Below are positions 43,463 to 44,797 of a DNA stretch of 64,000 bases, one piece after another. The position numbers were made by a program, and so were the translations under genes. How positions within the stretch are numbered: position 1 is the first letter of the stretch; each line of letters opens with the position of its first letter. Source of the stretch: Mesobacillus jeotgali (GTDB lineage Bacteria > Bacillota > Bacilli > Bacillales > Cytobacillaceae); contig NZ_FVZC01000009.1 in the NCBI RefSeq assembly GCF_900166585.1, positions 744,001 to 808,000 of the forward strand, in the 5' to 3' direction. A model generated the notes under the pieces. It saw only the letters and a program-made list of their open reading frames with translations. It made no database searches and had not been told where the DNA came from.

Positions 43463-44797
43463 TTGGCTAATAAAGGTTTGCATGTAGGCAAGCAAGCACC
43501 AGATTTTACTTTAACTGGGACGAACAATACAAAATACAGTTTATCAGACTTTTCCGGCCAGCCTGTCATACTCGTTTTCCTTAGGGGCACCTGGTGACCG
43601 AACTGCCGTAATCAGCTGGTCCAGCTGAATGAACATTATGAACACCTAAAAGCAAGCGGGATTCAAGTACTCGGAATTGCAGGCCAAAATTTAAAGGGAA
43701 TACAGTCGTATGTTGACAGTGAGGGAATCAAAATTCCAATCCTGTCTGATGGGAACAGGGAAGTCATTAAAAAATATGAAGTGTTTGTTCCCATTAAATG
43801 GGATAGTTTCCGTATTGCGATTCCAAGTACCTTTGTTTTGGATGAAAACCATGTCATCCGCTACAGTTATATAGGTGATTCGCAATTTGACCGTCCTGCA
43901 CTTGATGAAATTTTCAAGACGATCCAGAAAGTCCACAATTTAAGTGAAGACGGAGAGAAAAAGGATGACTCTGGACAGGCCGCTGTTTTCGTCGGCGCAA
44001 TGAAGGATACTTTCCAAGATATTGTGCTATCGACACAGACAATACAACATAGCGTTAATCACAACCTATCTTCGATTAATGAATTGGAAAACGAGCTAAT
44101 CGAAAATAAAGAGGCATTATCACTATTCTTTACAGTATTTGAACAGATGGAATCTAAAATCAGTATGTACAGTGAGGCAATCTATAAGGTATCAGAAGGC
44201 TCAGTTGCTGTAATCGAGGATAATAGACAGGCTTCAGAACATATGAAACAAACTTCCGAACTGTTAAAGGAACTGGTAGGTTTGACAAAGACCATTGGAA
44301 GCATTAGTTCGACGATCTCATCTATTTCTGGGCAAACTAAAATCCTTGCATTAAATGCTTCCATTGAAGCAGCACGTGCAGGCGAGCATGGCAAAGGATT
44401 CTCAGTAGTCGCAAAAGAAGTTGGCAAGCTGGCAGAAGCCTCTGCAGATGCATCAAAAAATATTTCTGCACAATTGGAAGAAATAGAAACAAAAATCAGT
44501 ACGAGTTTTTCCTCCTTTATCGATTTTGATGGTCTAATGCAGCAAATTGATGAAAAGGTAAAGTCACAAAATCAGGAATTGAATAATATTTCTTCAGGCA
44601 TCCTTTCAGTGAGGGATGAGAGTACAACCCTTGCGGACCGCCTGAGGAAAATTACTGAACAGGAAGAGGCACAGCAGCGAAAAATAGGCTCAGTAAAACA
44701 ACAAGAATTGAGTATTTCATCAGAAATCAATGGGATACATCGGGATATCGAGGAAAATAATAAGCTGCTGCAAGAACTGGATTATAGAGTGAAATAA
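43463..44797 (+). CDS. Peroxiredoxin-methyl-accepting chemoreceptor fusion with in-frame TGA, probable selenoprotein
   Basis: Read through one TGA (codon 45, 43595-43597), the frame gives 444 residues. Residues 1 to about 150 are an AhpC/TSA-like peroxiredoxin (VGKQAPDFTLTGTN, VILVFLRGTW-TGA-PNCRNQL, GIKIPILSDGN). The TGA stands where the family has its redox cysteine, giving a UxxC motif (Sec45, Cys48). Residues about 165-444 are a chemoreceptor signalling domain, with ILALNASIEAARAGEHGKGF at the tip (about 294-313). No membrane segment is present, so it would be a soluble redox or peroxide receptor. The start is TTG at 43463 with GAGGAG upstream. A SECIS-like hairpin follows the TGA, a sigma-D-type promoter precedes the gene and a terminator follows. 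A nonsense mutation is the alternative. Confidence 0.8.
43595..43627 (+). promoter_or_regulatory. Sec codon (TGA) and SECIS-like hairpin
   Basis: TGA at 43595-43597 is followed by a hairpin at 43613-43627, CAGCTGGTCCAGCTG. The arms CAGCT and AGCTG close a GGTCC loop (a 7-bp stem with a GTC loop is possible if T43612-A43628 and G43618-C43622 pair). The loop GG begins 21 bases after the TGA. In E. coli fdhF the loop GGU is about 19-21 bases after its UGA. Distance and a GGU-bearing loop agree with bacterial SECIS elements read by SelB. Confidence 0.72.

Follow-up and report, generated by a model that had tools for sequence, protein, structure and literature searches.

Does a TGA in the middle of an open frame, at the active site of a redox domain joined to a chemoreceptor, mark a dead gene start, or is it read as selenocysteine (Sec), and what would Sec do in such a receptor? 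The question is raised by a locus in a stretch of 64,000 nucleotides from Mesobacillus jeotgali (the window), which is part of a 2.54 Mb contig in a genome of 4.63 Mb. Translation of positions 43463-44797 gave 444 codons with one internal stop, the TGA at codon 45, and a TAA that ends the frame, which confirms the single TGA in an otherwise open frame that a preliminary description of the window had reported. The features of the locus, together with a riboswitch found elsewhere in the window, are as follows.

43387..43412, plus strand: sigma-D-like promoter, TAAC and GCCGATAA separated by 14 nt
43450..43456, plus strand: ribosome-binding site AGGAGAG 5' of the TTG start, from the sequence
43463..44797, plus strand: predicted selenoprotein chemoreceptor gene, TTG start to TAA, 444 residues including U45
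43484..43864, plus strand: AhpC/TSA-type thioredoxin-fold domain, residues 8-134, from Pfam and the fold model
43595..43597, plus strand: TGA, codon 45, predicted selenocysteine, in the context W-TGA-P-N-C
43604..43606, plus strand: TGC, C48, the sole cysteine and predicted resolving partner of U45
43612..43628, plus strand: SECIS-type hairpin UCAGCUG-GUC-CAGCUGA, 7 bp, G first in the loop, 21 nt from UGA to loop
44228..44653, plus strand: MCP signalling domain, residues 256-397, with the hairpin tip LALNASIEAARAGE from residue 295
44808..44838, plus strand: intrinsic terminator 3' of the stop codon, a GC-rich hairpin and T run read by eye from the sequence
50398-50538, minus strand: c-di-AMP riboswitch, 80.6 bits

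Both halves of the protein were recognised by Pfam, with AhpC-TSA matching residues 8-134 (111 bits; Redoxin was also matched) and MCPsignal residues 256-397 (98.8 bits against a cut-off of 34.6). A membrane segment was not found in the window protein, the highest 19-residue Kyte-Doolittle mean being at most 0.96, and the proposed fusion to a soluble chemoreceptor is thus borne out. In the fold model (mean pLDDT 75, pTM 0.36, with pLDDT below 50 at residues 1-4, 110-118 and in the linker 159-172) a thioredoxin fold reaches up to residue 162 and is followed by two long helices, 171-305 and 311-443, corresponding to the receptor hairpin. As had been predicted for ordinary gene callers, the identical database protein P0002 has only 319 aa and starts about 125 residues into the frame, past the active site. 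The 26 closest database proteins (P0001-P0026) are all truncated (313-384 aa) and carry either no name or that of a chemotaxis protein. Such short proteins are what one can cite for a plain nonsense mutation or true stop, leaving a dead N-terminus and a shorter chemoreceptor started downstream, but the truncated proteins that were read start at several different places. Three more distant fused homologues (P0039-P0041, 39-43% identity) begin in the database about 22-32 residues past the active site, as would be expected if they too had a TGA there.

In order to see how the TGA is conserved we surveyed 193 genomes of the window's family at a match threshold of 1e-60. The gene is rare, as only 12 genomes match, and each of the 12 matches has exactly one TGA; 10 of them are full-length and two (L047 and L048) consist of the redox domain only. 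A class-wide sample of 398 genomes gave 8 matches, three of them already counted. The others are a new full-length TGA form from another family (G375, 42% identity), two full-length Cys forms (G310 and G292) and two unfused Cys forms (G530 and G303). Within the family of G375 two of 7 genomes match, both already counted, and within that of G292 five of 39, all of them with Cys and two of them new. Altogether 19 loci were read as DNA. Thirteen of these, the window included, have the TGA and belong to two bacterial families (12 are distinct, since L038 and L039 are identical), and the remaining six have a Cys codon, so that the comparison of homologues at codon 45, which had been suggested as a check, came out in favour of Sec. 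At the Sec position, all six non-TGA loci read as DNA have Cys, and so do 11 of 11 fused proteins from the database, three of which coincide with loci.

The frame around the TGA is also maintained. In 11 family sequences (the identical twelfth was left out) synonymous sites are near saturation with a mean pS of about 0.6, and the ratio pN/pS amounts to 0.24 for the codons preceding the TGA and to 0.19 for codons 46-106 behind it, which indicates that both sides evolve as protein. No other stop was found in the family copies compared. A nonsense mutation is therefore very improbable, as it would have to be reconciled with the recurrence of this TGA in 13 genomes from two families, with the absence of further stops, with purifying selection on both sides and with a SECIS-type hairpin in all 13 loci (see below). 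The phylogenetic tree shows one Sec/Cys change (support 74/88), and a single origin of Sec on this tree is weakly supported; independent origins are possible.

The two short TGA copies deserve a description of their own. L048 (genome G083, positions 1501-1974) is a free-standing redox domain with TGA and SECIS-type hairpin, without a receptor remnant and without a sigma-D-like site, located at the same locus as the fused gene between an SNF2 helicase and a STAS gene, and represents a natural 'sensor-only' version. In L047 (genome G081) the frame ends with NNKLL-stop-GLDRRI, which resembles the receptor's own C-terminus and suggests that the receptor part was lost by an internal deletion; the assembly is incomplete and fragmented. 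A search of plasmid DNA gave 114 matching records, none covering more than 80% of the query, and the best 20 of these 114 show only the STAS gene, the helicase or a short stretch of the MCP tip.

The machinery for Sec insertion, whose presence in the same genome had been named as the first thing to check, was found completely. The gene for tRNA-Sec gives 56.1 bits as the sole match over the cut-off and is also called by ARAGORN, with the anticodon tca. The genes selB (363.6 bits; 2 of 14 control genomes over the cut-off), selA (560 bits; 1 of 14) and selD (399 bits; 2 of 14) are all present, with selD having one in-frame TGA of its own; selA does not lie beside selB in this genome. The same set of selA, selB and TGA-containing selD occurs in three named relatives, Bacillus sp. 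ISL-37, Bacillus sp. ISL-55 and Mesobacillus selenatarsenatis SF-1. Besides the main selD, two additional copies were seen that again have a TGA in frame, one being L033 and the other lying at a second place in the M. selenatarsenatis SF-1 genome that also carries L012. Regarding the distribution of selB, it was detected in 12 of the 13 TGA genomes, G375 included, and not in G081, which is 66% complete; among the Cys genomes it was found in G310 and not in G292, G530 or G303. As selB is common in the window's family (170 of 193 genomes) but the receptor gene occurs in only 12 of 193, their co-occurrence within the family says little, and we dropped it as an uninformative test. G310, moreover, has Cys at the site despite selB in its genome.

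A further requirement is a recoding signal behind the UGA. The bSECIS model has a stem of 4-16 bp, a loop of 3-9 nt with G in one of the first two positions, a distance of 16-37 nt from the UGA and an MFE of at most -7.5 kcal/mol (PMC13188914). The window hairpin with its 7 bp, the loop GUC, 21 nt and -9.1 kcal/mol agrees with all of these values. In each of the 13 TGA loci a stem of 6-7 bp whose loop has G among its first two positions lies 20-21 nt behind the UGA; only L047, with -7.0 kcal/mol in a short fold, misses the -7.5 limit. None of the six Cys loci has such a stem of at least 5 bp; what is seen there are 4 bp stems in L053 and L067 and a weak stem without the G in L051. In the distant G375 the stem ends at its top with C-G instead of G-C, the loop is GGU and different amino acids are encoded. 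Taken alone, the window hairpin lies only 1.5 sd below shuffled sequences. Scanning all 2759 TGA trinucleotides of the window (both strands, any frame) for at least 7 Watson-Crick pairs around a three-base loop with G in the first two positions, 16-37 nt downstream, gave five with a matching stem, one of them the TGA of codon 45. Among columns with a conserved residue, codon choice is invariant in three of the five within the hairpin (codons 51, 54 and 55), compared to 8 of 77 elsewhere (Fisher p 0.016). In the five TGA-containing selD loci that were read, the stem has 7-8 bp, the loop is GUU or GUA and the distance is 33 nt, and in four of the five an alternative stem of 7 bp with the loop GACGC can form at 26 nt; one SelB could serve both the receptor gene and selD.

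It might be argued that the UGA is read as another residue by suppression or readthrough and not as Sec. Apart from the open frame nothing speaks for it, and we regard it as hardly credible, because the genome has a tRNA-Sec with the anticodon tca, because the hairpin is absent where the codon is Cys and because Cys, the usual counterpart of Sec, occupies the site in every fused non-TGA homologue examined (11 of 11). Both this reading and the nonsense mutation were rejected on conservation, hairpin and Cys homologues. Taken together, the machinery, the SECIS-type hairpin, the conserved TGA and the Cys homologues support the assignment of selenocysteine to TGA-45, as far as this can be judged from genome sequences.

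The window contains a second gene with one in-frame TGA, a DUF2332 gene at 54843-55874 with the TGA at codon 247 (55581-55583). No stem of at least 4 bp with a G loop was found behind this TGA, and for this reason it is most likely a plain mutation and not a Sec codon, in agreement with the caution given in the preliminary description.

What kind of redox site is formed at U45 can be narrowed down further. Over its whole length, each of the 13 TGA proteins contains a single U and a single C, at U45 and C48, and in all 11 fused Cys homologues (P0027-P0037) no cysteine occurs besides the two that form the CxxC motif. The UxxC motif is supported as the likely redox site, as had been proposed, and with no other Sec or Cys at hand a U45-C48 selenenylsulfide would be the only intramolecular switch available. 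The assignment of the domain to the peroxiredoxins did not hold. Despite the match to the AhpC/TSA Pfam family, the peroxiredoxin motif PxxxT/SxxC (or U) is absent from 19 of 19 DNA loci and from 11 of 11 fused Cys proteins, and we rejected the membership on these grounds. The best PDB sequence match is a ResA variant (E 1.3e-17), in which the first active-site Cys aligns with U45, and in Foldseek ResA also comes first (TM 0.84 on the target), followed by Bcp, with other peroxiredoxin structures among the matches. None of the 25 NCBIfam models listed reaches its cut-off, and the ResA model with 71.2 bits against 170 does not make the protein a ResA equivalog. P121, located just before a strand, is invariant in 28 of 28 aligned sequences, at a position which we take to be that of the cis-proline of thioredoxin folds. 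With the peroxiredoxin motif missing and ResA as the best match, the domain reads as a sensor of the thiol-disulfide oxidoreductase type rather than as a peroxidase, and thiol/disulfide sensing appears likelier than peroxidase chemistry.

From the idea of a peroxide- or redox-sensing receptor the redox site thus stands, and the peroxide stimulus does not stand as it had been put, being one option only. In this option U45 would act as a peroxidatic selenol, with H2O2 or organic peroxides as its direct reaction partners. Sec speeds peroxidase chemistry, and the AhpC-TSA and Redoxin matches as well as Bcp and the other peroxiredoxin structures among the fold matches fit such a function, but the missing PxxxT/SxxC/U motif in 19 of 19 loci and the first rank of ResA by both sequence and fold make it a possible and rather doubtful version. 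It would be a variant of the receptor model given below and not its opposite.

Is the protein a receptor at all? One could also imagine a selenoprotein enzyme that reduces disulfides or peroxides and whose MCP tail merely acts as a scaffold placing it in the receptor array. Free-standing copies do exist, with TGA in L047 and L048 and with Cys in L052, L053 and L067, and L048 stands without any receptor remnant at the same SNF2 helicase/STAS locus, all of which suits an enzyme. The MCP tip is however intact in 14 of 14 fused loci, and the receptor-less L048 has no sigma-D-like site; we therefore consider the enzyme with a scaffold unlikely. The genome has one CheA (H-kinase_dim match). A scan for the motif of methylation sites gave no strict and three relaxed matches.

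The link to motility was followed through the promoter. The consensus of the motility sigma factor is TAAA-N15-GCCGATAT (PMC5200910). Before all 10 fused loci of the family, a number that includes the identical pair L038 and L039, there is a sigma-D-like site (TAA-x, a spacer of 14-15 nt, then GCCGATAA or GCCGATAT) at a distance of 37-61 nt from the start. It is also present before L047, whose receptor part is deleted, and absent before L048 (redox domain only) and before the distant L049-L053. The window's site scores 10 of 12, a value that 11 of 500 shuffles also attain; sites scoring as well are not rare (33 in the window). Genome-wide, the strict sigma-D pattern gave 9 sites compared to 4 for a reversed control pattern; one of the 9 precedes flgM by 37 nt and another cheV by 39 nt, both genes being recognised by eye, and no motility gene was recognised by eye behind the other seven. 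The genome-wide pattern is suggestive only.

The TGA is conserved, a SECIS-type hairpin follows it, the Sec machinery is present, the relatives have Cys, and a thioredoxin fold is joined to an MCP hairpin in a genome with one CheA. On this basis we consider it quite probable, judging from sequence comparison, that the gene encodes a selenoprotein chemoreceptor in which a U45-C48 redox switch sets the signalling state of the attached hairpin. The receptor gene would be expressed together with the motility genes from a sigma-D promoter, and SelB would insert Sec at UGA-45 when selenium is present. If selenium is lacking, translation would stop at 44 residues, and the full-length receptor would only be made with selenium. 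On meeting an oxidant or a disulfide of the cytosol, the U45 selenol might form a selenenylsulfide with C48, and this change might pass via the linker (residues ~160-170) to the coiled-coil hairpin and alter CheA activity. Thioredoxin or a bacillithiol system would then reset the pair. The response would be a redox taxis, in which the cell steers by its own thiol/oxidant state.

Several known systems can be compared to this receptor. ResA proteins are membrane-anchored. The likeness to ResA/TlpA-type oxidoreductases rests on the best PDB sequence and the top Foldseek match with the active-site Cys aligned to U45; in contrast to these the window protein has Sec, no membrane segment and a fusion to an MCP hairpin, and stays below the ResA model cut-off. 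The Cys-form fusions of a thioredoxin fold and an MCP from Tumebacillus, Fictibacillus, Paenibacillus and Brevibacillus have the same architecture (41-44% identity) with CxxC in the same place, and names such as 'redoxin domain-containing protein' and 'methyl-accepting chemotaxis protein' in their source; unlike the window gene, the three of these fusions whose DNA was read have a Cys codon and no SECIS-type hairpin. Having PF00578 and U45-P-N-C48, the window protein agrees with the Prx-like thiol:disulfide oxidoreductase selenoproteins, which are described by this domain and UxxC in Table 1 of a 2026 inventory; the likeness is one of domain and motif description, and no chemoreceptor module is listed for them there (PMC13188914). 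TlpD from Helicobacter pylori is likewise a soluble receptor in which a redox-active residue controls CheA, but there a single zinc-bound Cys in a CZB domain senses HOCl (PMC6715182), whereas the window protein has an N-terminal thioredoxin fold with a Sec-Cys pair; the CZB zinc-binding domain is not among its 15 Pfam matches.

Table 1 of the inventory contains no chemoreceptor or chemotaxis protein among 119 selenoprotein families, and the words 'chemotaxis' and 'methyl-accepting' do not occur in its text; the families with a functional name are, as we read the table, mostly redox enzymes or related proteins, with a TonB-dependent receptor and a putative FmdB-family regulator also among them (PMC13188914). 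A selenoprotein chemoreceptor was also not found in the open-access literature, where a passing mention within a paper is possible, and within these sources the earlier impression that no selenoprotein of this architecture has been described is upheld. Both modules are of known kinds, and what is new is their combination with Sec as the sensing residue. We are inclined, with some reserve, to regard the protein as the first selenoprotein chemoreceptor, in which Sec would be the sensing residue, cytosolic redox state would be passed directly to the flagellar motor and synthesis would be gated by the selenium supply through the UGA codon; redox would then guide the cell only in the presence of selenium.

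Selenoproteins of signal transduction can be missed, as gene callers restart after the UGA. The system lends itself to experiments, as it consists of a single receptor with a single Sec-Cys pair and a single CheA, and as Cys versions and receptor-less copies exist in nature. If the model is true, a chemotaxis receptor that senses by means of a Sec residue would put selenium to a new use.
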